A DNA stretch of 43,324 nucleotides from an uncultured Flavobacteriales bacterium (GCA_913056345.1 CAJXMH010000025.1:1-43324), one strand, 5' to 3'; numbered from the stretch's first letter, positions 7,560-33,581 are shown. Numbers and translations are program-made. Notes: generated by a model not told the origin, from the sequence alone.

Positions 7560-9556
7560 TCATCATCTTCGATCAAGTTGATCTTTCCGATCACCTTAAA
7601 TTCTGTTCTTCGATTTTTGGCCCTTCCTTCAGGATTATCTGTACCATCAGGATTGGTGTTGGGCGCAACCGGCTGGCTTTCACCGTAGCCTTTCGCTTTT
7701 AGTCGGTCACGGTCTACCCCTTTCTTTTTCAAATAATTCACCACACTTTGAGCTCGTTTTTGAGATAAATTCTGATTAAAAGCGGCTGAGCCTACGCTAT
7801 CTGTGTGGGAACCAATTTCCACGATAATCTCCGGATTTTCCTGCATGATGATCAACAAAGTGGTATCTAAAGCTTCATAAGCTTCTTCCATCATTTTACT
7901 GTCAGCAAAATCGTAGTAAATGTTCTCTACTTCGTAAACTCGATCTGTTATAGGTTTGAGTGAAAGCTTTAGCTCCATCCCCTCTCGATCACGCATGGCT
8001 GTTTTCTCTAGCAGACGGGATTGATTAAGGTATTCATCAGCCCTTGTCTTGATCACATAATCTTTGTCTTTTTCAAGGAGCAAGTCAAAGTTTCCTGAAG
8101 CATCAGGTTTAATGCTACGGTTAAAGTACAATTCCCCATCCGCATCCTTGGTGTAAAGATTAAGCTTTGCTTCCCGCACTTGCTGATCAGGCGCCTCTTC
8201 ATTTTTTAGGCTAACAGAAAGCTTTAGCAGGTCTACCGCAGCTTGATTGAAATAGAAAAGATCATCGCAGCAAGCCTGCAAGGCCACCTTTTTAGGGTGT
8301 GGACGGTTGGAGGCAAAAAGTCCTTCTTGTCCATTGGGGTGCACCACATAATAAACTTCATCTTGCGGCCCATTGATGCTTGCACCAATATTTAGCGGTT
8401 CGGTCCACCTGCTTCTTTGTCCGCTACTTTTAAACACATCAAACAAACCAAAGCCTGGATGACCGTCAGAGCTAAAAAACAATTCTCCACTCAATGGATG
8501 AATAAAAGGTGTGAGCTCATCTCCAACACTGTTGATCTTAGAACCACAATTTCTAGGAGTTTTGAATCGTTGCTTGTCAGGATCATAGCGGGTATACCAA
8601 ATGTCTTTGCCGCCCTTCCCTTCTTTGCGATCACTCACAAAATAAATGGTTTCCCTGCCCTTTTCATCAACTCCAATAGCGGGCTGTGTTTCCAAGGCCG
8701 AAGTATTGATCAATTCAGGTAGTTTCGTTGGCTTTTCCCAAACCTTTTGCTTTTCGCTGAAGTAGAGGTCACAGTCCTTTTCCCCTTTATAATCAAGAGC
8801 ACAAGCAGTAAAGTAAAAGCGATTCTTTTCAGGATTAAAAGCACCGTTTACCACTTCCATGCCGGACTCAAACGGAATATCATCCCAAGGCTTAACTATT
8901 GATGCGGAATCTGACTTGTAATCCACTTGATAAAATTTTCTGATGGGTAGGCCTTCTTCTGTACCCACTTCAACAGTTTGAGGTGCTCCAATTTCCAAGC
9001 GGTTGTAGGCAATTTTTCCATCACCAATAAAGATTGGTGCACCTTCCACCCGATTTGAGTTAGCGACTGACAAAGGCTTAACGCCCATAAAGTTGCTTGA
9101 GTCACTTAGTTCTTGGCAGCCTTCTGCTTGGTATTTAGCTAGTCGTCGGTATTTTCGATCATCCTTCTCACCCCTGTAGGCTTTCCGAAAGGCTTCATAA
9201 ACAGGAATGGCTTGTTTGCAACTGTCGATGGCTTTCAAACTTTCAGCATAATAAAAGGCAGCAAGCGGAAAACGTTTGGACTCGCGTTCTGACAAGTTTC
9301 GATATAAAGGTAAAGCAGCTTGATAAGCTCCTGTATTGCGGTAACATTCAGCTAAAGCATAGCTTATTCTAACATCTTGGGGTTTTCTTTCTAAATAGGC
9401 TTCATAATAAATGCTTGCAGTAGCATAATCCTGCATTTCTTCTGCAGATCTCGCTAACTCTTTTAATTGACCATTGCTGTAATCCATTTCTTGAGCTAAA
9501 AGCACAGGAGCTAAAGAAAGGAGTGCGACCAAAAAACTTGTCTTAATAGCGTTCAC
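7556..9556 (-). CDS. TPR-PD40-OmpA family envelope protein, partner of PorP/SprF
   Basis: This 666-aa protein has a signal peptide (MNAIKTSFLVALLSLAPVLLAQ). TPR-like helices follow (YYEAYLERKPQDVRISYALAECY), then a central block of PD40/WD40-like repeats (IYFVSDRKEGKGGKDIWYTR, LFFSSDGHPGFGLFDVF) up to about residue 410. A carboxypeptidase-regulatory-like segment comes next. The C-terminus is an OmpA peptidoglycan-binding domain (IIVEIGSHTDSVG, NQNLSQKRAQSVV, KGYGESQP, NRRTEFKV). Such proteins anchor outer-membrane assemblies to peptidoglycan and in Bacteroidota are usually encoded with PorP/SprF proteins and T9SS type-B cargo, as here. The start overlaps the upstream PorP gene by 14 nt, and the stop overlaps the kdsA stop. 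Compared with the paralogue at 32001-33581, it keeps the OmpA domain. Confidence 0.9.
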   Translation of the reverse strand: MNAIKTSFLVALLSLAPVLLAQEMDYSNGQLKELARSAEEMQDYATASIYYEAYLERKPQDVRISYALAECYRNTGAYQAALPLYRNLSERESKRFPLAAFYYAESLKAIDSCKQAIPVYEAFRKAYRGEKDDRKYRRLAKYQAEGCQELSDSSNFMGVKPLSVANSNRVEGAPIFIGDGKIAYNRLEIGAPQTVEVGTEEGLPIRKFYQVDYKSDSASIVKPWDDIPFESGMEVVNGAFNPEKNRFYFTACALDYKGEKDCDLYFSEKQKVWEKPTKLPELINTSALETQPAIGVDEKGRETIYFVSDRKEGKGGKDIWYTRYDPDKQRFKTPRNCGSKINSVGDELTPFIHPLSGELFFSSDGHPGFGLFDVFKSSGQRSRWTEPLNIGASINGPQDEVYYVVHPNGQEGLFASNRPHPKKVALQACCDDLFYFNQAAVDLLKLSVSLKNEEAPDQQVREAKLNLYTKDADGELYFNRSIKPDASGNFDLLLEKDKDYVIKTRADEYLNQSRLLEKTAMRDREGMELKLSLKPITDRVYEVENIYYDFADSKMMEEAYEALDTTLLIIMQENPEIIVEIGSHTDSVGSAAFNQNLSQKRAQSVVNYLKKKGVDRDRLKAKGYGESQPVAPNTNPDGTDNPEGRAKNRRTEFKVIGKINLIEDDD

Positions 9557-10565
9557 AGGGCAACCTCCGTATTTTGGGTTTCAAGTAATCGAGGGTGTAA
9601 ACCAAGCTGACTTCAAAACTGCCACGGTTTTGCGTGGCGAGTTCAAGCTCTGAAACATTCACATCATAAGAAAGACCAAGGTCAAAGTTCAGCAATTCGA
9701 TCCGTGAACCGATGATCAAGGCATCTGTTACCCGGTCAACCCCGCTTCTTACATAAAGAAAGGGTTTGATCGCCTGCACAAGGTCGCTCTTAAGCGCATA
9801 AAAACGTAAAGCAGAACCCAATACAAGCTCTGAGGCTCCTTTGGCTCTATAATAAGCTAAGTAAGGCTCAAGTGTTTTCCCTTTGAATCCAGAGTAAGTC
9901 CCTAAAAACTGCAAACCATAGCCACGATTCTTACGGTTATCTTCATCAAAGAGACTTTCCTCAGGTTCCAATAAGTTTGAAAGGGAAAAGCCACCCCTCA
10001 AACCCCATAGTGGGTTGAGTTGCTTCTCCCAAGATAAACCAAAGTTAAAATTGAAGAAGCTAAGTGAATTAGCCGGTAGATTCTCACCACTTGCCAACTG
10101 CTCGTTAAATCTCCCAATGGAGCGGTCATATTGTTCGGGGAAAGTAACACCGTTTAAATTGATACTCTTGCCTACCCATTGGTTGTTTAAAGCTGCTTCA
10201 AAAGTTCCATATTGGGTTTTCATTTCTGCACCAAAAACCAAAGCTACTTGGTTCATATCGAGTTTAACATCCCCACTTTGGTCATTGGTAAAACCTGCTG
10301 CTGCAAAAAAGTTTAGCCCTTTTCGTCCACTCTTGATCTTACGCACTAAATTGGCTGTAGAACTCACAAAAGGTTCCCCTATTGCAGCCCACTGCTGCCG
10401 ATAAGCAGAGTAAACTTGCCATTTACCATCAAAGTGATTAAAAAAAGTTGGATTTCTTTCTCGGTCTAGAACCAACCTTTGCGAATAATGCACGTCTTGT
10501 GAGTATCCAAAAGTTGAGGAAATCAAAGCTATGAAAAGCGTGCAGAAGAAGGTAAGAATCCTCAT
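9543..10565 (-). CDS. PorP/SprF family type IX secretion outer-membrane protein (first copy)
   Basis: With the ATG at 10565 the protein has 340 aa and a clean signal peptide (MRILTFFCTLFIALISSTFG). Then comes the family start QDVHYSQ, an early YRQQWAAIG strand (YR-Q-W is typical of PorP/SprF) and many predicted beta strands to the C-terminal VSLVYTLDYL. SprF and PorP proteins attach or present T9SS type-B cargo at the outer membrane, and individual paralogues usually serve the giant protein encoded beside them. That fits here: the 1446-aa PKD protein starts divergently 33 nt away. The frame is open to 10622, but that start would overlap the divergent gene and delay the signal peptide. It overlaps the downstream OmpA gene by 14 nt. 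Confidence 0.88.
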   Translation of the reverse strand: MRILTFFCTLFIALISSTFGYSQDVHYSQRLVLDRERNPTFFNHFDGKWQVYSAYRQQWAAIGEPFVSSTANLVRKIKSGRKGLNFFAAAGFTNDQSGDVKLDMNQVALVFGAEMKTQYGTFEAALNNQWVGKSINLNGVTFPEQYDRSIGRFNEQLASGENLPANSLSFFNFNFGLSWEKQLNPLWGLRGGFSLSNLLEPEESLFDEDNRKNRGYGLQFLGTYSGFKGKTLEPYLAYYRAKGASELVLGSALRFYALKSDLVQAIKPFLYVRSGVDRVTDALIIGSRIELLNFDLGLSYDVNVSELELATQNRGSFEVSLVYTLDYLKPKIRRLPCERY

Positions 10566-10574
10566 AAGTTGGAA

Positions 10575-10582
10575 CAAATATA
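10575..10582 (-). promoter_or_regulatory. Bacteroidota -7 box TATATTTG before the PorP/SprF gene
   Basis: On the minus strand TATATTTG matches TAnnTTTG and ends 9 nt before the ATG at 10565, implying a leader of only a few bases. It lies in the 33-nt gap between the two divergent genes, so their promoters must overlap or lie within each other's start regions. Confidence 0.4.
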
Positions 10583-10598
10583 TTAGTTTTACAGAGAA

Positions 10599-13500
10599 TT
10601 GACTTTTAAGATTCCATACCACAAATCTATCGGGCTTACCTTAAGTCTTTTAGGCTTACTCCTTTTTGTAAATAAGGGTTTCGCCCAACTGAGTGCAGAC
10701 TTTACAGTCAACCAAAATAGTGGATGCGTGGCTTTGCCCAATGTGCAATTTACTGATCAATCAAGTGGTAACATAACTTCTTGGAGTTGGCAATTTGGCA
10801 ACGGCAATACCTCTAGCTTGCAAAACCCGACAAGTTCATATCCAACAGTTGGCAGTTACACTGTTACGCTAACGGTGAGCAACGGCACCACGAGTTCAAC
10901 TGTTACCAAAACAAATTTTATTAATGTTTATGCCAATCCTGTAGCTGATTTTAACTTCAATCCTGTAGGAGGTTGTTCTCCCTTAGCGGTTAGATTTAAC
11001 AATACCTCAAATGCACCTGCAGGTGTTGCTTCCTACAGTTGGGATTTTGGTGATGGCAGTCCGGCAGGAAGCGGAGCCAATCCTCAGCATACCTATGCGG
11101 TTGCCGGCAACTTTTCGCCTTCATTAGAAATAGTAGATGTAAATGGCTGCCGTGACACAGAAGTTAAAAGTTCTGGAATTAGCGTGACCAATTCACCGCA
11201 GGCAGACTTTTCTGCAGCTAACCCTGTAGCCTGCGCAGCGCCGCATACGGTTAACTTTAGCAACAATTCTCAGGGCAGTAATTTGAGTTATTTATGGCGT
11301 TTCGGTGACGGGAACACTTCCACTCAGATCAATCCTTCTCATACCTATTCCAATTTTGGGACTTACACCGTTACCCTAGAAGTTTCTGATCCAAATTGCA
11401 GGGATACCTTGATTCAACAAAACTATGTAAGAATTGAAGCCACCAATGCTGATTTTGATTTTGCCAAAGCGGTTTATTGTTTAGAAGACACCATCTTTTT
11501 TAATAACCAAAGTACAGGAGCGAATTTATTTAACTGGGATTTTGGTGATGGAACAAGCTCAACACAATTTGAACCTAGCAAACAATACAGCAGTCCGGGC
11601 ACCTACCCTGTGCGTTTACAAATCTTCGCCGGTGGTAATTGCACTGACGAACTTGTGGATACGGTAGAGGTCTTCGAATTGGTAGCGGACTTTATAACCG
11701 ATAGTACTTTTAATTGCCGCAACGATCTTGCTCGCTTTTATGCGAGTGCGAATTCACCAGCAGAGTTTATTTGGAGTCTAGGCACTAATACTGAACCTGA
11801 CAGTTTAAATGGAGATACCGTGCAGCAAATTCAAGGTGATTTTGGCATTTTTTCAGACACCTTGATCGCAGTCAATGACAGTGGATGCGTCGATACAGTG
11901 GTTAAAGTTGATAACCGTGAGGTAGATTTCTTATTGGCTAGGATTGCTGCCAATAGCGTGATTGTAGATGACGATACTATGAAAGGATGCCTTCCCCTGA
12001 ATTATGATTTTGCAGACAGCAGTCTTGGTACTTATCCGATTATCAAACGGGATTGGGATTTCGACCTAAATCGAACAAGTAATCAACTTAGTGCGAGTAA
12101 CATTGACTTTCCCAACCGACAAGCATACCGAACTACCCTCTTAATTGAAAACTCCAAAGGTTGCACCGCTTTTGATGAAGTTTATGTGGTTGGTGGAGAA
12201 AAACAGATTCCTGCTTTTACCTTTTTCCCTGATTCCATTTGTCCAGGTGATTCACTAACTATTCTAGATCAATCAACTGTTCAATCGTTTATAGATACTT
12301 TCAAATACATTTTCCTTTCATCTAATAATCGCTTGCAAACAATAGTGGATACGCCTGGGATTAAAACATCCTTTCCGCCAGAAACAGGCTTGTACAACAT
12401 AAATCTTCAAATTACGGATAATGGCTGTGACACCCTACTAGAAACCACTGATAGTGTTTACCTGAAAGGTCCTGTGGCTGTTCCTACATTTTTCTCCAGT
12501 TGTAGCACAAGAACCATGATCAACTTTCGAGCAAATGCTTCAGGTTTTACACGCTTTTATTGGGATTTTGGAGATGGGAGCCCGCTAGATTCGGTAAACC
12601 TGAATCCCTCACATCAATATGGCTCGGGCAGTACTTTTCGGGTAGAATTGATCTTATTGAACGATACCAACGGTTGCGATACTGCTAAATTTGAATTGTT
12701 TGTACCCGTGGGTACGCTACCGCCATTGCAAATATCACCTGACACCCTAAACTTTTGCTTGGGTTCTACCGTGAGAATTTACAATGCTGATTCAAGCACT
12801 TACGTTCGAAACGATTGGACCTTTGATGGTCAGTCGATTGGCAACCTCAGAAGTTTTGTGCGGACGTTTAATGCACGCGGTACTTACCCAATTCTGTTGC
12901 AAACGGAAGATGTGTTGGGCTGCACTTATCAGGTCAGGGATACCATCTACATCAGTCAACCCGAGGCTAAAATTGGTAGCGAAATTCTGCAAAGCTGTGC
13001 CCCTATGGTGGTTGACTTTATTGATTCAAGCACAACGGATACTACCATTCAGTCTTGGCTTTGGACTTTTGGAAATGGTGACAGCTCATTTGTGGCAAGA
13101 GACACAGTGCAGTACCCTTTGAATGCCAATCCTGATGTATTCTTGAAGATCGAGAATGTTTTTGGCTGTAAAGACTCCGTATTGATTCCTAAATTTTTAG
13201 AATCACGGCAATTGCAGGTTGACTTTCGGTTTGGGAACGTCAACATTTGTGCGGGAGATAGCATCACTTTTAGGAACACCTCTTCTGGTTTAAATCCTAC
13301 TTACCGTTGGTTTTTTAATGACGATACCCTAAGCTCTCAAGCCAATTTCCTAAACCGCACTTTTAGTGAAGCAGGAATTTACACCGTGCAATTAGAGGCA
13401 ACAGATGAAAATGGCTGTATCTTAAAAGATAGCCTAGCTAATTTGGTCAGGGTTGATTCAGTTCCTGTGGCCGACTTTATAGCAGACTCTGTATTTGCGC

Positions 13501-14939
13501 CCTGCCCTCCTCTACCTGCAAATTTTCAGGACTTAAGCAGTGGTTCACCAACTCAATGGCGTTGGAACCTAGACCAAACTGACAATTCGATCTCCATCGT
13601 TCAAAACCCCTTTAAAAACTATACCCTTCCGGGAAGCTTCAATATTTCTTTATGGGTAAGCACACCTAATGGCTGTCAAGACTCAATAACTAAAAATGCA
13701 TACATCAATTTGAATGGACCGCTAGCTGAAATAGCTTCTAGCTCCTCTAGCATTTGTATTGGTGATACGATCCAATTCAGTGCGGTTAACACCACAGGAG
13801 CTCAAAATTATTTTTGGGACTTTGGAGATGGTAAAAATGCTACAGGCACCTCAGTTAGTCACGTCTATGATACCGTAGGAACGATCTTCCCTTCCCTGAT
13901 TATTGATGACGGAAATAATTGTAGAGTTGGCATTGTGGATACCATACAAGTCAATGGGGTTCAAGCCGACTTTGAATTAGCAGAAGATACCCTTTGTGTT
14001 CCTGCATCCTTAGCCATTACCAATCGTTCCTTAGGAGCTAACAGTCAAGTTTGGAATTGGGGAGATGGCACCTTATCAAGTGATCCTAATCCTAGTAAAA
14101 GCTATGCTAGCCCGGGTCAATACACCATTACTTTTAGTGTTTCTTCCACAGAAGGTTGTCGCGATACAATAATTAAAACCTTCACCGCAGCACCTAATGC
14201 AAGACTGGATGTGATTCAAGATACTTCATTGTGTGAAGGAGATACTGTGCAAATTGAGGCAAGTGGAGCTGAATTATACAACTGGAGTCTACCAAGCTTT
14301 GCTAGCCAAATCAATGACAGTACGGTACTTGCTTTTCCTTCAGTTGATACCACCATTCAATTGATCGGTAATAACCTATTCAACTGCTCAGATACGGCAA
14401 ACATCGGACTTCAAATCGTTCAAGAACCACTAGTTCCCTTTTTTACTGACACCACCATTATTATTGGCGAAGAACTTAGTCTAGCAGCTTTTGGCAGTAG
14501 TCAATATAATTACCTGTGGACACCACCTGATGGCCTGAGTTGCAATACTTGCCCCAATCCGATATTTGGTCCACTTTCAACAACACGCTACACCTTGAAA
14601 GTTACCGACCCCTTTAACTGCTATGAGATTGATCGTGACTACTTGATCGAGGTACTGGAGCAGTTTTCGCTTGATGTTCCGCAAGTTTTTAGCCCAAATG
14701 GTGATGGCGTAAATGACGTGATCTTTGCAAAAGGTTGGGGCCTCAAAGAGTTGCTAAGCTTTAAGATCTTTAATCGTTTTGGAGAAGTGGTATTTGAAAG
14801 TCAAGATTTTGACCAAGGTTGGGATGGCACTTACAGAGGTGAAGACCAAAATATAGAAACCTACGTTTACACCGTAGAGGCTTTAACCTTTGGAGGCGAA
14901 GTTATTCGTAAAAAAGGAAACATTAGTTTAATTCGATAA
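10599..14939 (+). CDS. Giant PKD-repeat surface protein with T9SS type-B (gliding motility) C-terminal domain
   Basis: The product has 1446 aa. The signal peptide (SIGLTLSLLGLLLFVNKGFAQ) requires a start near 10599; no ATG is available, so the TTG at 10599 is chosen. About fourteen to sixteen immunoglobulin-like PKD units follow, many with the W-x-F-G-D/N-G-x-x-S core (YSWDFGDGSPAG, YLWRFGDGNTS, FYWDFGDGSPLD) and a pair of cysteines (GC near the first strand, GC-x-D-T near the last). The end, from VPQVFSPNGDGVNDV to GNISLIR with the WDGTYRG motif, is the gliding-motility/CHU_C domain that marks cargo of the type IX secretion system. The protein is probably exposed at the cell surface or released, as adhesin or matrix. 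The ligand is unknown. The stop overlaps the convergent helicase gene by 17 nt. Confidence 0.9.
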   Translation: MTFKIPYHKSIGLTLSLLGLLLFVNKGFAQLSADFTVNQNSGCVALPNVQFTDQSSGNITSWSWQFGNGNTSSLQNPTSSYPTVGSYTVTLTVSNGTTSSTVTKTNFINVYANPVADFNFNPVGGCSPLAVRFNNTSNAPAGVASYSWDFGDGSPAGSGANPQHTYAVAGNFSPSLEIVDVNGCRDTEVKSSGISVTNSPQADFSAANPVACAAPHTVNFSNNSQGSNLSYLWRFGDGNTSTQINPSHTYSNFGTYTVTLEVSDPNCRDTLIQQNYVRIEATNADFDFAKAVYCLEDTIFFNNQSTGANLFNWDFGDGTSSTQFEPSKQYSSPGTYPVRLQIFAGGNCTDELVDTVEVFELVADFITDSTFNCRNDLARFYASANSPAEFIWSLGTNTEPDSLNGDTVQQIQGDFGIFSDTLIAVNDSGCVDTVVKVDNREVDFLLARIAANSVIVDDDTMKGCLPLNYDFADSSLGTYPIIKRDWDFDLNRTSNQLSASNIDFPNRQAYRTTLLIENSKGCTAFDEVYVVGGEKQIPAFTFFPDSICPGDSLTILDQSTVQSFIDTFKYIFLSSNNRLQTIVDTPGIKTSFPPETGLYNINLQITDNGCDTLLETTDSVYLKGPVAVPTFFSSCSTRTMINFRANASGFTRFYWDFGDGSPLDSVNLNPSHQYGSGSTFRVELILLNDTNGCDTAKFELFVPVGTLPPLQISPDTLNFCLGSTVRIYNADSSTYVRNDWTFDGQSIGNLRSFVRTFNARGTYPILLQTEDVLGCTYQVRDTIYISQPEAKIGSEILQSCAPMVVDFIDSSTTDTTIQSWLWTFGNGDSSFVARDTVQYPLNANPDVFLKIENVFGCKDSVLIPKFLESRQLQVDFRFGNVNICAGDSITFRNTSSGLNPTYRWFFNDDTLSSQANFLNRTFSEAGIYTVQLEATDENGCILKDSLANLVRVDSVPVADFIADSVFAPCPPLPANFQDLSSGSPTQWRWNLDQTDNSISIVQNPFKNYTLPGSFNISLWVSTPNGCQDSITKNAYINLNGPLAEIASSSSSICIGDTIQFSAVNTTGAQNYFWDFGDGKNATGTSVSHVYDTVGTIFPSLIIDDGNNCRVGIVDTIQVNGVQADFELAEDTLCVPASLAITNRSLGANSQVWNWGDGTLSSDPNPSKSYASPGQYTITFSVSSTEGCRDTIIKTFTAAPNARLDVIQDTSLCEGDTVQIEASGAELYNWSLPSFASQINDSTVLAFPSVDTTIQLIGNNLFNCSDTANIGLQIVQEPLVPFFTDTTIIIGEELSLAAFGSSQYNYLWTPPDGLSCNTCPNPIFGPLSTTRYTLKVTDPFNCYEIDRDYLIEVLEQFSLDVPQVFSPNGDGVNDVIFAKGWGLKELLSFKIFNRFGEVVFESQDFDQGWDGTYRGEDQNIETYVYTVEALTFGGEVIRKKGNISLIR

Positions 14940-19009: not shown

Positions 19010-19038
19010 TTGATTTTATGCTTTTGGGTGTACCTTTG
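19010..19038 (+). promoter_or_regulatory. Promoter of the MbnP/MauG-like module: TTG-N18-TACCTTTG
   Basis: A -33-like TTG at 19010-19012 and a perfect -7 box TACCTTTG at 19031-19038 are separated by 18 nt, close to the Bacteroidota spacing. The predicted transcript start (about 19042-19045) falls on the ATG at 19043, which suggests a leaderless or nearly leaderless first gene. Confidence 0.55.
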
Positions 19039-19042
19039 TTAT

Positions 19043-19432
19043 ATGAGGTTACTACTTAAATATCTAGGTGTTTTTATCCTTATTTCCTCATTGTTTTTTT
19101 CTACAGCTTACAAATCGATTATTCGCCTCAGCTACGAGATCAACAAACTAGAAATTATTGAGAAATTTTGCATAAATAAAGAAGAAACCACCTTTAAGTG
19201 CGAAGGTAAGTGTCACCTCAAAACGCAACTTCAAGAAGTGGAGAAAGTTCCATCGCAAAACCAAGATCAAGAAGAAGTTCGCACAGATTATCAAGTACAA
19301 CTCTTCTGCCCTGTTAAAGAAAAATTAGATAAAAAAAAGGTGCAAACTAATCCACAGTATTTCGCCGCCTATTCAAATCTATATCATTTTCTATTTGTAG
19401 ACAAAGTAGTTCCTCCACCAAAGTTTGTTTAG
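19043..19432 (+). CDS. Small exported or membrane-anchored Cys-rich protein with CxxxC-GKCH motif
   Basis: From the ATG at 19043 the protein has 129 aa: an N-terminal hydrophobic segment (residues 2-22) and then a charged region containing Cys43, Cys53, Cys57 and His58 in the form FCIN...KCEGKCHLKTQ. The tail is Gln/Glu/Lys-rich and ends in VVPPPKFV. Similar short Bacteroidota proteins with a C-x-GKCH-x-K motif occur near metal-related genes; to my knowledge they are uncharacterised. The Cys/His cluster could bind copper or another thiophilic metal, which would fit the MbnP and MauG-like genes that follow. The frame is open to 18968, but that start would overlap miaA and lie upstream of the promoter. 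Metal binding is inference. Confidence 0.65.
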   Translation: MRLLLKYLGVFILISSLFFSTAYKSIIRLSYEINKLEIIEKFCINKEETTFKCEGKCHLKTQLQEVEKVPSQNQDQEEVRTDYQVQLFCPVKEKLDKKKVQTNPQYFAAYSNLYHFLFVDKVVPPPKFV

Positions 19433-19471
19433 CTGAAATTTTTCTATTTACGCTAAATAAATTAACCCATA

Positions 19472-20458
19472 ATGAAAAAATACCTTTCGCTCTTTTTTGG
19501 AGCGTGGTTATGCAGTGCGCCTGCTTTTGCTTGTGATCTCTGCAGCATTTACCTAAACCTTGAGCCTAATGACCTCAAGAACTCTATTGGCATGAACTAC
19601 CGTTACCGTGCATTTAAGTATCAGTCTATCAACAGCTTTAGCAGCTCAACTAATTTAAAGCATGCTACAGGCGAGAATATTCTGAGCCAGTCTAGTACCC
19701 AAGAGGAACTCTTTAACAGTTACGATCTTTGGGCTAACTACTTTTTACATGAAAAATGGCAATTAAATGCTACACTGACTTTTGCTGATAACTACTATTT
19801 AGAAGATGACAGTAGCCTTTATAACATTGCTGGTCCGGGAGATTTGACAGTTTTAAGTAAATACATGTTCTACAATACCAAAGTCACGGATAGTTCAGAT
19901 TGGGCTATTCGTATTCTTGGCGGAGCGGGGGTTCAAATACCCATTGGTCAATTTAATAAAACCTATGTTGTTGCTCCTAGTTCTTCTTCAAAAGGAAATG
20001 TGGTATTTGGAACACCTTATGAGGAGTTGGATCCACACATGCAAGCAGGAACGGGCAGTTGGGACTTGATCTTCCTTATGGAAGCTCAAGTAAGGTATAA
20101 GAAAGTTGGCTTAGCCTCTAATGTCAGCTATCAAGTAAATTCAGAAAATTCAAACCAATTTCGCTTTGCCAATCGCTTTAATGTAAATAGCAATGCTTTT
20201 GTTTTGTTAAAGCTAAAGCAATTTACCTTTGCCCCTAATATCGGCTTAAGCTATGAATTTAGTGAGAGAGATCGCTTTCAAGGTGATCGCTTTTACAATT
20301 CAGGAGGAGAAGCCTTGTTTCTCAATGGTGGTGGAAAAACTTACTACCGAAACTTTGCTTTAGGGGCAACCTATTTTAATCCTATTCGTCAATCATTAAA
20401 CGATCGTCAATTACCAAACGACTACCGTTATACGATTGATTTAACTTATTATTTTTAA
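19472..20458 (+). CDS. Outer-membrane beta-barrel protein with N-terminal CxxC, in MbnP-type metal module
   Basis: This 328-aa protein has a signal peptide (residues 1-20, ending APAFA) directly followed by CDLC (Cys21-Cys24), so the mature N-terminus would start with a CxxC pair. The remainder alternates short turns and amphipathic strands (GMNYRYRAFKY, YDLWANYFL, LTVLSKYMFY, GVQIPIGQF, VSYQVNSENSNQFR) and ends in YTIDLTYYF, a classical outer-membrane barrel terminus. Barrels of this kind are found beside MbnP and MauG-like genes in Bacteroidota and are often annotated as transporters. The exposed CxxC suggests metal contact. It lies 39 nt after the Cys-rich small protein and 9 nt before the MbnP gene, so a single operon is likely. 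Substrate identity is inferred only. Confidence 0.72.
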   Translation: MKKYLSLFFGAWLCSAPAFACDLCSIYLNLEPNDLKNSIGMNYRYRAFKYQSINSFSSSTNLKHATGENILSQSSTQEELFNSYDLWANYFLHEKWQLNATLTFADNYYLEDDSSLYNIAGPGDLTVLSKYMFYNTKVTDSSDWAIRILGGAGVQIPIGQFNKTYVVAPSSSSKGNVVFGTPYEELDPHMQAGTGSWDLIFLMEAQVRYKKVGLASNVSYQVNSENSNQFRFANRFNVNSNAFVLLKLKQFTFAPNIGLSYEFSERDRFQGDRFYNSGGEALFLNGGGKTYYRNFALGATYFNPIRQSLNDRQLPNDYRYTIDLTYYF

Positions 20459-20467
20459 TCAATTATC

Positions 20468-21274
20468 ATGAAAAATTTATTCAACCCAAAATATTACATT
20501 TTACCATTAATTGCTTTTTCTAGCTTATTCTTCACCGCTTGCGAAGAAGAGGATGATGAACCATTAATTGAAACGCGCATTGTTGAAGAGTCGGTTCCAC
20601 GTTACCAAGCAAGCATTAACTTCAAGGAAAAAGTAAACGGTAACGACCTGCAAATGAATACAAACAACAAACCATACACCAATGCCGCAGGTCAGAGTTT
20701 TAATGTAACACGTTTACGCTATTTGATCTCTGATATAAAATTTCAAAAGGCTGACGGAAGCAGTTTTACCATCCAAGGCTACCACTTTGTAGATGCAACA
20801 GACCCGGCTGATGACACATACATGCCTGATGCAAAGGTTCCTGCAGGAGATTATGAAAAAATTAGTTTCACTTTCGGCTTTGACCGTGAAGATAATGTGA
20901 GCAATGCCTACCCGGCTTTAAATATTGCTAACTGGGCATGGCCTGGAATGTTAGGTGGTGGTTACCATTTTATGCAATTAGAAGGCGACTACGATAGCCT
21001 AGGAACTTCAAAATTCTTTGCAACCCACATGGGTACTGCCCGTAATAATACTGTGAGCCCAACAACTTATGAAGCGAATCACTTTGAGGCAGTTTTAGAC
21101 ACAGCTATTAGCATTGACGGCGATTTCAGCTTTAGCATTGTGATGAATGTGGAACAATGGTATGAAGATCCTTATCAATGGGACTTTAATGTCTATAATG
21201 CACCCATTATGCCTGTTTATGATGCCCAGCGCAAATTGTTCATAAATGGACCGTCTGTATTTACTTTTGAATAA
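20468..21274 (+). CDS. MbnP family lipoprotein (copper-binding, partner of a MauG/MbnH-like enzyme)
   Basis: This 268-aa protein is a lipoprotein by its signal peptide (IAFSSLFFTACEE). The mature part fits the MbnP family: an early YQASINFKEKVNG, RLRYLISDIKFQ, GYHFVDATD, VPAGDYEKISFTFGFD, then NWAWPGMLGGGYHFMQLEG, FFATHMGTA, and a C-terminal FSIVMNVEQWYEDPYQWDF. In characterised members a partner di-haem enzyme (MbnH) oxidises a Trp of MbnP to kynurenine, which enables copper binding; several Trp are available here in the NWAWPG and EQWYEDPYQW segments. The MauG-like gene begins one base after this stop, which strongly supports the same partnership. Family and partnership are confident; copper as the metal is inferred from the family. 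Confidence 0.88.
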   Translation: MKNLFNPKYYILPLIAFSSLFFTACEEEDDEPLIETRIVEESVPRYQASINFKEKVNGNDLQMNTNNKPYTNAAGQSFNVTRLRYLISDIKFQKADGSSFTIQGYHFVDATDPADDTYMPDAKVPAGDYEKISFTFGFDREDNVSNAYPALNIANWAWPGMLGGGYHFMQLEGDYDSLGTSKFFATHMGTARNNTVSPTTYEANHFEAVLDTAISIDGDFSFSIVMNVEQWYEDPYQWDFNVYNAPIMPVYDAQRKLFINGPSVFTFE

Positions 21275-21275
21275 A

Positions 21276-22382
21276 ATGAAGTATTACTTTAAAATCATAT
21301 TTATCACTGTTATCGCGCTTCTCGGTGCTTGCCGAGAAGACGATAATAGTGATCTAATTATTGAAAGGGAAGAGCCCCATAATAATGATCCGGGAGAACC
21401 TACACCTTACACTTTTCAAGTTCCTGCCCACTTCTCTCGTATTGGAGCTCCTTTTGTGCCCCAAGATAATCCAACTACGGTTGAAGGAGTAGCTTTGGGT
21501 AAAAAGCTGTTTTTCGAGCGTAAACTTTCGCGGAACAATCAGATTTCTTGTGCTTCTTGTCATAAACCAGAAGCATCCTTTAACGATCCAGGTAAAGCAG
21601 TGAGTATTGGTGCAGATGGCACAACCCAAGGTATTCGAAATGCGATGCCTTTGTTTAACCTCGCATGGACAAAAATTACCAACTCAGATTTCAATTGGCA
21701 TGGTAATGCAGAAAGTCTTGAAGAACAAGCTTTAGAACCGGTAGTAAATCCTCTGGAAATGCAAGAGAGTTGGCCTAATGTGGTCAATAAATTGAAAGCT
21801 GACCCTGACTATCCACGCTTATTTAATGAAGCTTTTGGAACAGTTGACATTGATTCTCATTTAGTGGTAAAAGCCATAGCACAGTTTGAACGAACCCTGA
21901 TTAGTGGTGAGAGTCGTTATGATAACTACATCAACAATCAGAGCAACGGGCCTACCTTAACAGCCCAAGAAATACGTGGTTTGCAATTGTTTATTAATGA
22001 AGATAAAGGCGATTGTGCCCATTGCCATGGTGATCAATCGAATCCCCTTATGACGGATTTTCAATTTCGTAATAATGGATTAGATGCCAATCCTGACTCA
22101 GGTCTGGCAGCAGTAACAAAAAATCCGAACGATATAGGAAAATTCAAAACGCCTTCAGTAAGGAATCTTGTTTTTACGGCTCCTTATATGCACGATGGAA
22201 GATTTACAACCCTGGAGGAAGTTGTAGACTTTTATATCGATGATATTCAAGAATCACCCACCTTGGATGGCTTTATGAGAAAGAAAAGAGAATTAACTTC
22301 GCAAGAAAGAGCAGATTTGGTTGCTTTCTTAAAAAGTATGACAGATAGTTCCTTTACCCGGAATCCTGCTTTTAGGCCTTAG
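21276..22382 (+). CDS. Di-haem cytochrome c peroxidase / MauG-MbnH family lipoprotein
   Basis: From the ATG at 21276 the protein has 368 aa with a lipobox (IALLGACRE, Cys19). It carries two c-type haem motifs, CASCH (residues 92-96) and CAHCH (247-251). The usual surrounding family sequence is present: ALGKKLFFERKLS before haem 1, RNAMPLFNLAW, LEEQALEPVVNPLEM, AIAQFERTLISGESRYD, FKTPSVRNL and PYMHDGRF. Such enzymes reduce peroxide or, like MauG and MbnH, use a high-valent di-haem state to oxidise residues of a partner protein. The gene starts one base after the MbnP stop, so the partner is almost certainly the neighbouring MbnP. The frame is open to 21246, but that start would fall inside the MbnP gene and delay the signal peptide. 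Its stop overlaps that of the convergent flavoprotein gene (TTAG). Confidence 0.92.
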   Translation: MKYYFKIIFITVIALLGACREDDNSDLIIEREEPHNNDPGEPTPYTFQVPAHFSRIGAPFVPQDNPTTVEGVALGKKLFFERKLSRNNQISCASCHKPEASFNDPGKAVSIGADGTTQGIRNAMPLFNLAWTKITNSDFNWHGNAESLEEQALEPVVNPLEMQESWPNVVNKLKADPDYPRLFNEAFGTVDIDSHLVVKAIAQFERTLISGESRYDNYINNQSNGPTLTAQEIRGLQLFINEDKGDCAHCHGDQSNPLMTDFQFRNNGLDANPDSGLAAVTKNPNDIGKFKTPSVRNLVFTAPYMHDGRFTTLEEVVDFYIDDIQESPTLDGFMRKKRELTSQERADLVAFLKSMTDSSFTRNPAFRP

Positions 22383-24081: not shown

Positions 24082-25023
24082 TTATTCTGCTGCGGCAGCT
24101 TCGGTAACATCGACGAGTTCAACATCGAAGATTAACGTATTGTAGGGTTTAATGATCCCTCCTGCCCCGCTCGGGCCATAAGCAATACTTGAAGGAATGA
24201 TCAAACGGGCTTCTCCACCTACTTTCATCATGCCAATACCTTCGTCCCAACCTGGAATAACTCTTCCCTGACCTAATGGGAATTCCAAAGGACCGTAAGG
24301 CTCTCTTCGCTCATCGTACAATCCTTGCTCTTCAGCAATTTCTTTGATAGAGGTGTCAAAGTAAGTGCCATCCAATAGCTGACCTGCATAGTTTACTTTC
24401 ACAGTCATACCAGCTTCGGCTTTCTTACCAGTTCCTTCTTTCTTAGAAATGAAGATCAAACCACTCTCAGTAGGTGTCTCCTCAATTCCATTTTCTTCTA
24501 GATAGCTTTGCAATGTAGCCATTTCTGCTTGCATTTGCTCAGCTTGCATTTGCTGTTGAGCAGCTTGGATCTCTTCCATGCTTTGAACATCAATGATGCT
24601 TACATCAAAATACAAAACGCTTGCACTATCTACAAAATCAGGCAACTCTCTCATTCTTGCTGTTTTCAGATAGAAACTATCAGCACTTACAATGATTGAA
24701 GCACTATCGCCTGCATTCATGCCAACGAAAGCATTTAAAATATCACCAGTATATGAGGCAGTATCTGCTTTTAGCTGAGTTGGTTGTCCAGCCTGACGGG
24801 TATCCATCAAAACAGAATCAGATTCTGTCTGGTAACTCATATGCAAGGTTACAATATCACCTGCTTCAATAACTCTACCAGTATCATTATCTTGGTAATA
24901 CTTAATATACAAGCCGTTTTTTTCTGCATATCCTGGATAAGGAGATTTTTGCTGGCTTGAACATGAACTCATCAGAACTCCAATTCCAAAAACGAAAGTG
25001 GTTAAAAGTGATAAATTTTTCAT
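24082..25023 (-). CDS. FKBP-type peptidyl-prolyl isomerase lipoprotein with two FKBP-like domains
   Basis: This 313-aa protein is a lipoprotein (VLMSSCSSQ). A first, degenerate FKBP-like domain covers about residues 35-155 (EAGDIVTLHMSYQT, AFVGMNAGDSASIIV). A Gln/Met/Glu-rich coiled-coil linker follows (IQAAQQQMQAEQMQAEMATL, residues ~160-180). The C-terminal FKBP domain is canonical: MTVKVNYAGQLLDGTYFDTS, FPLGQGRVIPGWDEGIGMMKVGGEARLIIP, AYGPSGAGG, LIFDVELVDV. The second domain keeps the aromatic pocket residues and should be an active prolyl isomerase acting on periplasmic or surface proteins. The ATG overlaps the stop of the preceding FKBP gene (ATGA), and a strong terminator follows. It probably assists folding of exported, T9SS- or motility-related proteins, by association with gldI. 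Confidence 0.88.
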   Translation of the reverse strand: MKNLSLLTTFVFGIGVLMSSCSSQQKSPYPGYAEKNGLYIKYYQDNDTGRVIEAGDIVTLHMSYQTESDSVLMDTRQAGQPTQLKADTASYTGDILNAFVGMNAGDSASIIVSADSFYLKTARMRELPDFVDSASVLYFDVSIIDVQSMEEIQAAQQQMQAEQMQAEMATLQSYLEENGIEETPTESGLIFISKKEGTGKKAEAGMTVKVNYAGQLLDGTYFDTSIKEIAEEQGLYDERREPYGPLEFPLGQGRVIPGWDEGIGMMKVGGEARLIIPSSIAYGPSGAGGIIKPYNTLIFDVELVDVTEAAAAE

Positions 25024-25868
25024 TGGTGTTTTTCTACTTTTAAAATGTTTACATCAAATATAACTGCGGTATATGGTGGGACTATTCCGGCTAAGGAACC
25101 TTCCTTCCCAAAAGCGCGCCGCGAAGGTAGTATTATTTTAACGCTTTCCCCTGATTTCAGTCCACTTATTCCCATATGAATACCTTCTAACAATTGGTAT
25201 TCCTTTCCATACACAAAGGTTGGAATAACAGCTTTGTCGCGGCTGTCCTCAAATACATAGCCGTTCAAAAAACTTCCCTGATAAGCTATGCTGATCTCAT
25301 CACCATTTTCAATTAAATCGCCTTCATGGTTAATTTGCTTAACCTGTCGAATTACATCTCCTACCGTATCTATATAGCCTTCTAAACGAGCCAAGTACTT
25401 TTTTAGGGCAAGTTGTTCTTCTAATTCTCTCTTTGAGAGCAACGTTTGGCGAAACTTTTCTGCCTTAGCTTTATCAAGTACTTTATTAAGACGAAAATAG
25501 AGCTTGATCTTACCTGTGTCCGTTTTACCCAATCGGTAGAAGTCAAACTTTTGATTGAATTCCTTCCGTGGCATAATGAAAATCCCACTATCTCCTTCTT
25601 TGCAAAATGTCCATGCGCTATCAAAAGCGGTTTCATTTAATGGAAATACGTAGGGATAATTTGGAACGTGATGCAAAGTATCGCCTTCAAAATCCAAGAC
25701 TAAGAATGAGGTAGCAAGGTAATCACCGATTTCCGCCCGCCTGCCTTCTCCAAATTGAAGGTATTGAAAAGCGATATCATCGCTCAGTTGTTTGTATGCA
25801 GTTTCCTTATTATCACAAGCCCATAAGAAAATAAGTAGTAAAATCGGCAAGCTCTTCTTTACGCTCAT
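25020..25868 (-). CDS. FKBP-type peptidyl-prolyl isomerase lipoprotein, double domain
   Basis: This 282-aa protein has a lipoprotein signal (LPILLLIFLWACDNK). The N-terminal part has a diverged FKBP-like domain (RRAEIGDYLATSFLVLDFEG ... CKEGDSGIFIMPRKEF), with the pocket residues mostly lost. A helical linker (LDKAKAEKFRQTLLSKRELE) follows. The C-terminal FKBP domain is closer to the consensus (NGDEISIAYQGSFLNGYVFEDS, LLEGIHMGISGLKSGESVKIILPS, AFGKEGSLAGIVPPYTAVIFDV). It starts with an ATGA overlap on the gldI stop and ends in the same overlap with the next FKBP gene. Domain layout matches its downstream neighbour, so the two are probably old duplicates. A chaperone role in the envelope is inferred from family and context. 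Confidence 0.82.
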   Translation of the reverse strand: MSVKKSLPILLLIFLWACDNKETAYKQLSDDIAFQYLQFGEGRRAEIGDYLATSFLVLDFEGDTLHHVPNYPYVFPLNETAFDSAWTFCKEGDSGIFIMPRKEFNQKFDFYRLGKTDTGKIKLYFRLNKVLDKAKAEKFRQTLLSKRELEEQLALKKYLARLEGYIDTVGDVIRQVKQINHEGDLIENGDEISIAYQGSFLNGYVFEDSRDKAVIPTFVYGKEYQLLEGIHMGISGLKSGESVKIILPSRRAFGKEGSLAGIVPPYTAVIFDVNILKVEKHQ

Positions 25869-26404
25869 CTTTTGGCCAAGAGTTTAACATCATACACCAA
25901 AGTCGCTTGTGAGGGAATTTTCATTTGATCACCTGTAATTCCATGAGCTAGGTGGGCAGGTAAAATAAAACGAGCACGGTCTCCAACTGCCATAAGTTTA
26001 ATACCCTCATGTAAACCGCTTTCAACCTGATCAAAGTCTACTGTAAATTCAAAATACTTTCCCTCTTTTGTTTGCGAAATCGTATCGCCATTCATGATAC
26101 TAAGGGTGTAGGCAATTAGCGCATTTTCTCCACCCTCTAGAGTATCGTTGCCTCCTTTTTCATAAATAGCATAATAAAGACCAGATCCACTTTGTGTAAA
26201 TTGATAATTACTTGAATCTATATAAGTTTTGATCTTCTCTTTTTCCTTTTGCAAAAAAAGCTTGTGCGATTCGATCATGGTTTGCTCATACTCCTTCTTA
26301 GTCTTAAAAGGCAATTGCTGTTGCTTGCCCCCTCCTTTGCAAGATGGCAGTAAAGCAGCTAAAAAGAGCATTATAAAAGACTTAATAGTCCAATTCAGCA
26401 GCAT
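25865..26404 (-). CDS. gldI: GldI-like gliding-motility-associated FKBP lipoprotein
   Basis: This 179-aa protein is a lipoprotein with lipobox LLPSCKG, one coiled segment (KEYEQTMIESHKLFLQKEKEK) and one FKBP domain: SGSGLYYAIYEKGGNDTLEGGENALIAYTL, VESGLHEGIKLMAVGDRARFILPAHLAHG, then KIPSQATLVYDVKLL. The order and wording match GldI, the peptidyl-prolyl isomerase needed for gliding motility and T9SS function in Flavobacterium, and the neighbour upstream (a DHH phosphoesterase) is also the neighbour of gldI in flavobacteria. The ATG at 26404 overlaps the nrnA stop by 23 nt and keeps a lysine ahead of the hydrophobic core; an alternative ATG at 26371 would shorten the signal peptide. Symbol given on family and synteny; function in this organism is inferred. 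Confidence 0.75.
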   Translation of the reverse strand: MLLNWTIKSFIMLFLAALLPSCKGGGKQQQLPFKTKKEYEQTMIESHKLFLQKEKEKIKTYIDSSNYQFTQSGSGLYYAIYEKGGNDTLEGGENALIAYTLSIMNGDTISQTKEGKYFEFTVDFDQVESGLHEGIKLMAVGDRARFILPAHLAHGITGDQMKIPSQATLVYDVKLLAKR

Positions 26405-30987: not shown

Positions 30988-32001
30988 TTAAAATTTAGCA
31001 CATGGAACGGTAAAGCGCCGGTTTCTGCGCTTCTGCTTTTTACTAGCCACTTCATAAACGATTGAAAGCTCATGCGCTCCGCCAGTGTTGGCTGCTAGTC
31101 GAGAAATAGTTGCATCATAGCTGTACCCTACCCTAAAATTTCGATCAGGAATGGTGTATCCAACCAGAAAGCTCAATGCATCATTGTTTTGAAAACCTGT
31201 TTCATAGGCCTTAAATCCGGGAATTCCCCTGTACCACAAACCAAATACAAAAGGTGCGTGATTGTAATAGGCCCCAATATCAAATTGATCAAAAAGCCCC
31301 TGCGACTTATAATGTATGGCAGTCATGATCTCTTTGGCTGAAAGGCGTTTCTTAATCGGACCAGATAATTGAAATTTATATCCGGCATGCACCGAGTACT
31401 TCATGGGCAATTCGCTCAAGTTACCGTCACCTAGTAAAGTCTGGTTGGGCCGGTTAAGGTGATTGATCGAAAAACCTGCCCAAAAGAATTCTCCGTAGAC
31501 CAAGGCACCAGTGCTAATGTCAGGGTAGCTAACTGTTTCATTTCGGAAGGCATCTTCATCAGCGGTGAGATTGCTACCACTTTCCAATTGATCATTAAAA
31601 GTGAGTCTGCTGTAATCTATTCCGCGAAAAGCATAACCCATTTTAAGGCCTGGTTGGATAAACAACTTTCTTTTAACCCTAAAACGGTAAGCATAAGAAA
31701 GGGCTACTAAATTGGTAGTCAATCCAAAGGAGCCCGCTTCCTCTCGATTAAAAATCAGGCCAAAACCGCTGTTGATCTCTGAGGCATTATAGTCGTAAGC
31801 AAAGTGATAAGCCTCAAAAGCGCCGGGAACATTAGGCCATTGGTGACGGTAGTTCATGGCCACACGATGCTCTATGGTAGAGCCAGTAAAGCCAGGATTA
31901 ATATACATGGGAGCTGCATAGAACTGCGTAAACTGCATGTCTTGTGCGATTGCTGCAGAAGCAAAAAGGAATATAAATGCTATGAGGCTTAACTTTTTCA
32001 C
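30988..32001 (-). CDS. PorP/SprF family type IX secretion outer-membrane protein (second copy)
   Basis: This 337-aa protein has a signal peptide (MKKLSLIAFIFLFASAAIA). It then has the family start QDMQFTQFYAAPMYINPGFTGS and YRHQWPNVPG (the YR-x-Q-W-P hallmark of PorP/SprF), then barrel strands and VGYSYDATISRLAANTGGAHELSI near the end. The start is a GTG that shares one base with the TAG stop of the upstream PD40 gene (TAGTG), so the two are coupled. Closer to classical PorP/SprF than the copy at 9543-10565. It is the third gene of a PKD, PD40, PorP operon and probably helps secrete or attach the 1850-aa protein. Confidence 0.95.
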   Translation of the reverse strand: MKKLSLIAFIFLFASAAIAQDMQFTQFYAAPMYINPGFTGSTIEHRVAMNYRHQWPNVPGAFEAYHFAYDYNASEINSGFGLIFNREEAGSFGLTTNLVALSYAYRFRVKRKLFIQPGLKMGYAFRGIDYSRLTFNDQLESGSNLTADEDAFRNETVSYPDISTGALVYGEFFWAGFSINHLNRPNQTLLGDGNLSELPMKYSVHAGYKFQLSGPIKKRLSAKEIMTAIHYKSQGLFDQFDIGAYYNHAPFVFGLWYRGIPGFKAYETGFQNNDALSFLVGYTIPDRNFRVGYSYDATISRLAANTGGAHELSIVYEVASKKQKRRNRRFTVPCAKF

Positions 32002-33581
32002 TATTTGCTCAAGGGATTAAGTTTAAAAGTTAGGCTTTGCTCTTTCATAAGGGCTTCCTTTTCATAAAGTATTATTTCCATTTGTTCTTCATAACCTTCT
32101 AACTCAATCATCAGGTCATATTCTACGCCCGGATTTACCAAAAAGATAAAACCTCCATCTTCACTTCTTGAACGGTAAACGCCAGTTAATTCGCCGCTTT
32201 CTAGTTCTACAAGGCTAATATCAGCCGATAAGGGCTCGTTACTAGTAGCATCAAGCACTTTTGCTCTGATGACTGATTGCCTGAGGTCACGCTCCAAGTA
32301 ATCGATCATATAGATATCATGACCTCCAAATCCGCCTGCTTTATTAGCTGCGTAATAGGCTTTTTGCTCATTGGCCGAAATCACAAAGAAGATATCATCC
32401 TTGGTGGTATTCGTTGGGAAACCCAAATTCTGAGGACTTGTCCATTGCTCTTGGTCGATCAAACTTGCTTTGAAGAGATCAAAGCCGCCCATGTTTTCAT
32501 GTCCTTTAGAACTAAAGTAAAGCGTAATCCCGTCAGGATGAATAAAAGGTGCGTCCTCATCAAAAGCCGTATTGATATCAGGCCCTAAGTTCTTGGCTTC
32601 ACTCCACTGCCCATTGGGAAGCATTTTAACTCGGTACAGATCAAATCCTCCGAAACCACCTTCCCGATTAGAAGAAAAATAAAAGGTCTTTCCATCTAAA
32701 GCGAGTGAAGCACTTCGCTCTATGCTTTCATACTTATTGATAGCTGATTCTAAGCGAATTGGTTTGGTCCATTTCCCTTCTTTCTTAATGGATTCATAGA
32801 GGTCTCCACCAATTAAGTTATTATTCGGCTTAAAGGTGTAAAGCCTTTGTCCATCAGGAGAAAGACCAACTGCGGCATCATGTGTTTCGGTATTGATCTC
32901 ATCCACCAGCTGTGCTTCTGTCCACTCTCCTTCTGCCTTCTCAGTTCGGTAAATATCTTCAAAGGGCTCTCCCCTTGGATCGAGGGTATTGTTTTCGTGT
33001 AGCCTTCTAGAAGTAAAATAGAGTATGCTTTCATCTGATGTAATCAGTGGCACGTATTCATCTTGATCTGAATTGACCTTAGGGCCTAAATTAATGATAT
33101 TCAACACTTCAGGATTGGCCATCATTTTTTTGGCAACGCTTGCTTGTTCTTTTAATCGTTTAATAAACTCTGCATTAAAAGAAGACTGCTTGGGATCGTA
33201 ATGCTGTTCGAATAGCCCTAAAGCTGCTTGCATTTGATCAAACTTTGCTTCATGCAAATAGATTTTGGCTCGTAAATAGTGGGCGTCTGTATTGTAAGCC
33301 GCACCCTTTTTCAAGTAAGGTAAAGCCTCTTTGTATTGGTCTAGTTGGTAGTAGGCATCACCCATTATAAAGTTGATCTCAGCGTCTGAAGAATCTACTG
33401 GGTAAAGTTGCTCAAAGTAAGTGGTGGCAGTTAAAAAGTCTCCGTAAACGTAATAGGAGTCTCCCTCTAGAAACAGCTTCTTTTCTTGTTTATCATATTT
33501 TTTAGATTGCGCAGAGGCTGTGATGCATAACAAGCTAAGCAAGAGCAGTGTAAAACAATATTTGAATCTCAGCAGCATCAT
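32001..33581 (-). CDS. TPR-PD40 repeat protein of the T9SS-linked triad, without OmpA domain
   Basis: This 526-aa protein has a signal peptide (FTLLLLSLLCITASAQ) and an N-terminal TPR region (GDFLTATTYFEQLYPVDSSD, LDQYKEALPYLKKGA). At least five PD40-like blades follow (ILYFTSRRLHENN, TFYFSSNREGGFGGFDLYRV, TLYFSSKGHENMGGFDLF, AYYAANKAGGFGGHDIYMI). The C-terminus is a carboxypeptidase-regulatory-like beta domain (VLDATSNEPLSADISLVELESG, onward to LNPLSK). It ends there, whereas its paralogue at 7556-9556 goes on with an OmpA peptidoglycan-binding domain. It overlaps the PKD gene by four bases (ATGA) and the PorP gene by one. Probably a periplasmic or outer-membrane partner of the PorP protein; exact role unknown. 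Confidence 0.88.
   Translation of the reverse strand: MMLLRFKYCFTLLLLSLLCITASAQSKKYDKQEKKLFLEGDSYYVYGDFLTATTYFEQLYPVDSSDAEINFIMGDAYYQLDQYKEALPYLKKGAAYNTDAHYLRAKIYLHEAKFDQMQAALGLFEQHYDPKQSSFNAEFIKRLKEQASVAKKMMANPEVLNIINLGPKVNSDQDEYVPLITSDESILYFTSRRLHENNTLDPRGEPFEDIYRTEKAEGEWTEAQLVDEINTETHDAAVGLSPDGQRLYTFKPNNNLIGGDLYESIKKEGKWTKPIRLESAINKYESIERSASLALDGKTFYFSSNREGGFGGFDLYRVKMLPNGQWSEAKNLGPDINTAFDEDAPFIHPDGITLYFSSKGHENMGGFDLFKASLIDQEQWTSPQNLGFPTNTTKDDIFFVISANEQKAYYAANKAGGFGGHDIYMIDYLERDLRQSVIRAKVLDATSNEPLSADISLVELESGELTGVYRSRSEDGGFIFLVNPGVEYDLMIELEGYEEQMEIILYEKEALMKEQSLTFKLNPLSK

Follow-up and report, generated by a model that had tools for sequence, protein, structure and literature searches.

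A putative metal-sensing leader peptide at the head of a barrel–MbnP–MbnH operon in an uncultured Flavobacteriales bacterium

What does a small cysteine-containing protein do at the head of an operon that otherwise encodes an outer-membrane barrel, the lipoprotein MbnP and the di-haem enzyme MbnH? The question arises from a 43,324-nucleotide stretch of DNA from an uncultured Flavobacteriales bacterium (GCA_913056345.1 CAJXMH010000025.1:1-43324), hereafter the window, in which four open reading frames (ORFs) lie in this order on the + strand with minus-strand genes on both sides. ORF calling confirmed the gene order given in an initial annotation, which had regarded all four products as parts of an outer-membrane metal-uptake or metal-delivery route. 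Our analysis points with good confidence to another role for the first gene, as a regulatory leader that would sense metal in the manner of CutF/CruR and control barrel, MbnP and MbnH through ribosome stalling and an RNA hairpin. We favour this reading because of the C-terminal Pro-Pro of the leader, its fixed spacer, its first position, a promoter box and a hairpin between its stop codon and the next start. The features of the leader region were as follows.

19031-19038, + strand: Bacteroidota-type -7 promoter box TACCTTTG, 4 bases ahead of the leader ATG
19043-19432, + strand: leader peptide ORF of 129 residues, ATG at 19043, stop at 19430-19432, with 109 homologues
19169-19216, + strand: candidate metal site CINKEETTFKCEGKCH (C43-H58), three Cys invariant in the leader alignment
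19412-19420, + strand: putative stall site of three Pro codons, separated from the stop by three sense codons
19422-19433, + strand: RNA hairpin 5' arm, containing the leader stop codon and beginning two bases past the last Pro codon
19452-19463, + strand: RNA hairpin 3' arm, 8-19 bases ahead of the barrel ATG

Given the -7 box at 19031-19038, the leader most likely begins at ATG 19043 rather than at TTG 19010 in the same frame; the C-GKCH motif that the initial annotation had assigned to the small ORF is present, while the start that it gave, 19010, is probably not the one used. The protein comprises a hydrophobic N-terminal segment (judged by eye), a Cys motif of the form C-x9-C-x-G-K-C-H and a C-terminal PPPKFV. 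It showed no significant match to Pfam or NCBIfam, and DUF2946 (PF11162) had no match in the bacterium's own genome at E ≤ 10 and none among 24 leaders. The homologue set was drawn from 100 loci plus the window; relatives' loci were picked with the leader profile, their genes were called mechanically, and control junctions came from the same loci. The segment ahead of the Cys residues is also conserved, and the Cys motif showed 57% identity in comparison to 23% for the linker, which measured 64.1 ± 2.2 residues. The distance from the last motif Cys to the Pro-Pro ranged from 63 to 75 residues with a mode of 66. Pro-Pro within 10 residues of the C-terminus was found in 107 of 109 leaders but in only 3 of 719 other genes at these loci. 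The two leaders without it (L174:1066-1287 and L183:2244-2417) are truncated copies; in these close relatives the next barrel is fragmented too, and MbnP and MbnH are seemingly intact.

TAnnTTTG occurred upstream of 76 of 107 leader relatives in comparison to 63 of 1010 control windows, and the leader therefore opens the transcript, which in the window would be almost leaderless itself. The stem formed by 19422-19433 and 19452-19463 reached -12 kcal/mol (z -5.1), and throughout the family the end of the leader's coding sequence, stop included, base-pairs with the stretch directly ahead of the next start. The Pro codons themselves stay largely single-stranded, with pairing in the part that follows them. 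For gaps of 25-60 bases, the expected pairs between stop zone and next-start zone numbered 10.8 at leader junctions and 4.1 at control junctions (p 4e-10), and the excess between the same zones held for gaps up to 110 bases (p 5e-14). Six close leaders aligned with MAFFT were too divergent for covariation to be read, and an arm-swap test was used instead. Hairpin arms swapped between loci paired far worse (p 1e-15), with the window's own arm the best of all, and so the arms co-vary despite their differing sequences; specificity in the top 5% was reached by 29 of 87 leader junctions and 7 of 161 control junctions. The general folding z-score differed only modestly between leader and control intergenic regions (p 0.0015), the position-specific pairing test being the more informative. 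With a modelled ribosome placed on the three prolines, the mean unpaired probability of 19450-19474 rose from 0.48 to 0.70-0.73, and the modelled hairpin is of the CutF type, predicted to shield the region where the next gene starts.

Alternatively, a CutF/CruR-like leader could act through Rho termination, in which case the hairpin would contribute to mRNA stability or to termination instead of shielding the start; we consider this unlikely. CruR uses Rho, the genes downstream of the leader in one relative (L165) resemble the CruR operon, and operon hairpins were also present at control junctions. However, the arm-swap specificity given above distinguishes leader junctions from controls, the hairpin keeps its place between leader stop and next start and is not followed by a U-run in the window sequence, and the gap after the leader is short (39 bases in the window, median 78 across the family) in comparison to the 162 bases of cruR-bfrG (PMC9426467).

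The genes that the leader would control, with their principal sites, were the following.

19472-20458, + strand: outer-membrane beta-barrel, FapF/COG4313-like by AlphaFold2 model and Foldseek
19532-19543, + strand: CDLC, predicted from the sequence as the mature N-terminus of the barrel (C21, C24)
20468-21274, + strand: MbnP lipoprotein, PF20243, matching 7l6g by profile and fold
20933-20941, + strand: W156-A-W158 of MbnP, candidate kynurenine site, aligned to WNW of 7l6g
21026-21028, + strand: H187 of MbnP, candidate metal ligand, aligned to the His of HVG in 7l6g
21276-22382, + strand: MbnH-like di-haem lipoprotein, ATG at 21276, one base past the MbnP stop
21549-21563, + strand: haem motif CASCH, with C, C and H invariant in 33 relatives
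22014-22028, + strand: haem motif CAHCH, with C, C and H invariant in 33 relatives
22233-22235, + strand: Tyr320, MauG/MbnH-type axial position, Met in the cytochrome c peroxidase 9qdt and Tyr in 6e1c

The initial annotation of these three genes held up throughout: a barrel with mature end CDLC, an MbnP lipoprotein, and a di-haem MauG/MbnH-like gene starting one base after it. The barrel model had a predicted local distance difference test (pLDDT) score of 84.5 and matched 5o67 (E 1.2e-11) and 4rl8 (E 7.4e-9) in Foldseek; both mature-start Cys are invariant across 38 barrels at identities down to 18%. MbnP matched PF20243 at E 1.5e-33 and 116.7 bits (gathering score 27 bits), a profile of 30 MbnP proteins matched 7l6g, the Methylosinus trichosporium MbnP, and its model (pLDDT 88) returned 7l6g chains as the top six Foldseek matches with nothing else significant. 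W156, W158 and H187 are invariant in these 30 proteins, nearly all of which have MbnH adjacent, whereas W-x-W was absent in 17 of 22 MbnP without MbnH in the locus, mostly replaced by F-x-(S/N/A). MbnH matched CCP_MauG at E 2.8e-56, its best Protein Data Bank match was the 'Di-heme enzyme' 6e1c (E 3.5e-53), and the position of Tyr320 held Tyr in 29 of 33 relatives and Met in none. By these sequence features MbnP and MbnH are a bona fide pair. In methanotrophs, MbnH converts an MbnP Trp to kynurenine. At least two acidic residues follow the lipobox Cys directly in 41 of 62 MbnP and 29 of 35 MbnH proteins, which would fit a Bacteroidetes surface-export signal.

A second alternative is that MbnH is of the peroxidase type and MbnP binds metal without kynurenine, the pair forming a detoxification or redox module. 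MbnP scored 30.8 bits against the TIGR04052 equivalog, under its 140-bit cut-off, and MbnH 255.8 bits against TIGR04039, under the curated cut-off of 362.85; the sole Cys of MbnP is that of the lipobox, and the four-Cys feature is therefore lacking. We nevertheless regard this as improbable, as the axial Tyr replaces the peroxidase Met, and W-x-W and His are invariant beside MbnH and mostly lost without it (essentially in one clade). Loci without MbnH include an MWFG-type MbnP clade (L095, L098, L108, L117, L118, L124, L127, L154 and others), and a protein of about 130 residues with a cytochrome-like CxxCH often follows MbnP in such loci; after the MWFG-type MbnP this protein might act as an alternative partner in maturation or electron transfer.

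The co-occurrence survey that the initial annotation had proposed showed that the neighbourhood is conserved. In 48 of the 109 loci the leader was directly followed by the barrel, and in 19 by MbnP. As this set had been picked by the leader, a reverse check was made from the MbnP side: among the 30 best PF20243 loci, chosen regardless of leader, 18 had a leader within 1.5 kb upstream, and all 18 leaders carried the C-terminal Pro-Pro. The four genes are a recurrent Bacteroidota unit and not a chance association, and a barrel with an invariant CxxC is a usual MbnP partner in this phylum. The genome of the window itself encodes one PF20243 protein and one leader. Other leaders precede other exported genes without MbnP, some of them a TonB receptor and a YtkA lipoprotein, some a large TonB receptor, and in L165 PepSY_TM. 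In L165:2908-6948 (- strand), the leader is followed by a TonB receptor and then PepSY_TM, in the order of the Bordetella pertussis cruR operon. At L181 and L182, the operon that begins with the leader has a DUF5777 barrel together with small cytochrome-like lipoproteins, and none of its labelled genes is MbnP.

Of the outer-membrane metal route as initially annotated, the conserved unit, the MbnP/MbnH pair and the barrel CxxC stand, and the unit is best read as having a metal (copper) role, but the small Cys protein is better taken out of the route as a working part. That it is a stable membrane-anchored metallochaperone acting with barrel, MbnP and MbnH is more doubtful than either alternative above, since the invariant Cys, the conserved preceding segment and the strong linkage to MbnP and the barrel are outweighed by a remainder that is poorly conserved yet of fixed length, a nearly universal Pro-Pro end, a hairpin that links the leader end to the next gene, and the unrelated operons that it also heads.

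For the regulatory leader we propose the following sequence of events, in which the metal is probably copper. During its synthesis the leader would be inserted in the inner membrane or exported through it. By the time the C-terminal Pro-Pro(-Pro) is being translated, the Cys motif, some 65 residues back, would already be outside the translocon and able to bind copper. By the tunnel and membrane arithmetic of PMC9973294, the longer spacer would place it about 20 residues further out than in CutF. A ribosome paused on the prolines would cover the hairpin 5' arm, melt the stem and expose the barrel start region, while one that finishes and departs would let the hairpin re-form, with less translation of barrel, MbnP and MbnH. 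The products would be a thiol-capped outer-membrane pore, MbnP as a copper-binding lipoprotein, and MbnH as the enzyme that would oxidise one Trp of W-x-W to kynurenine and so build the MbnP copper site. As to sign, we lean slightly towards a CruR-like arrangement, in which copper starvation would cause the pause and switch the operon on, over a CutF-like one in which copper would do so, because the genes are of the acquisition type as in CruR operons and the CorA/CorB genes are copper-repressed (PMC3621798).

Several points weigh against this proposal. Pro-Pro alone can be a weak stall, and the CutF proline tail gave no stall by itself (PMC9973294). CutF and CruR are opposite in sign: copper raises the CutF target (PMC9973294) and lowers the CruR target (PMC9426467). 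Instead of copper, the leader might respond to another thiophilic metal or to a redox cue. A modelled terminating ribosome also lifted the accessibility of 19450-19474, to 0.66, so that dwell time must carry the signal. Finally, the tree showed the W-x-W/MbnH link to be essentially one clade; its treatment as many independent events was dropped, and the losses therefore count as one supporting event.

The leader was found in 161 of 295 genomes of the class and, beyond it, in 78 of 198 genomes sampled from the whole phylum. A search with an alignment of closer relatives found 16 named genomes, mostly Flavobacteriales metagenome-assembled genomes. It is somewhat probable that these leaders form a Bacteroidota-wide arrest-peptide class with no detectable DUF2946 similarity, marked by a Cys motif of its own, a stop-codon hairpin and a sensor that lies outside the translocon, about 65 residues away from the stall, and that this class switches barrel–MbnP–MbnH and TonB-receptor operons. 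If so, a major phylum would possess a translation-level sensor of copper (or metal) outside any described Pfam family, the control of MbnP/MbnH operons without methanobactin would be explained, and a test case would be available for a ribosome inside the cell that feels metal binding outside the membrane. Because the leader is so widespread in the class, its Cys, Pro-Pro and hairpin signature could flag many uncharacterised metal operons.

Elsewhere in the window, two clusters (7556-14939 and 30988-39130) resembled by eye the type IX secretion/gliding kind, with PorP/SprF-type, OmpA or WD40-type and giant PKD-repeat surface proteins, and three genes in a row at 24082-26404 (- strand) resembled, again by eye, FKBP-type peptidyl-prolyl isomerase lipoproteins.

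Among known systems, 5,334 CutF-like proteins have been counted with a large Bacteroidota share (Ozturk et al., PMC9973294); Bacteroidota leaders as a class are therefore not new. The sections of that paper covered here do not describe the C-x9-C-x-G-K-C-H motif, nor does its main text mention MbnP. We found no report of the leader motif, the hairpin or the leader–barrel–MbnP–MbnH unit, although the wider literature and supplements could say more. Copper control by both CutF and CruR needs the Cys and the Pro motifs (PMC9973294; PMC9426467). CutF of Rhodobacter capsulatus cutFOG is a short exported first-gene protein, and the leader, itself short, first in its operon and probably exported, shares with it a Cys metal motif, a proline-rich C-terminus, a short intergenic region and a predicted hairpin over the next start region. 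The leader described here differs in its Cys motif (CxxxC in CutF), in a Cys-to-proline distance of about 64 residues in comparison to 45, in a hairpin 5' arm that takes in the stop codon, and in targets that are barrel, MbnP and MbnH rather than a multicopper oxidase. Unlike CutF and CruR, it has no DUF2946 match. CruR of B. pertussis (DUF2946, PMC9426467) is also the first gene of an acquisition-type operon and has Cys and Pro motifs, but ends in RAPP where PPPK/HPPK is found here, and is followed by a 162-base gap with Rho termination where the gap here is short and structured; the L165 relative shares the TonB receptor–PepSY_TM order of the CruR operon, and MbnPH-like genes have been reported in some CruR operons (PMC9426467).

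The predicted barrel fold is like that of FapF (5O67) and the COG4313 channel (4RL8) with weak profile similarity, and unlike these the barrel has an invariant Cys pair at its mature N-terminus and an operon shared with MbnP. In comparison to the TIGR04052/TIGR04039 pair (PMC3621798), the Bacteroidota MbnP lacks the four-Cys motif and the pair scores under the equivalog cut-offs. The M. trichosporium pair (7L6G, 6E1C) differs in that no methanobactin genes occur at the present locus, but shares with it the MbnP fold, W-x-W, His, the axial-Tyr di-haem enzyme and gene adjacency. CorA/CorB and MopE/SACCP of methanotrophs likewise set a copper protein beside a di-haem enzyme, and MopE contains kynurenine (PMC3621798).

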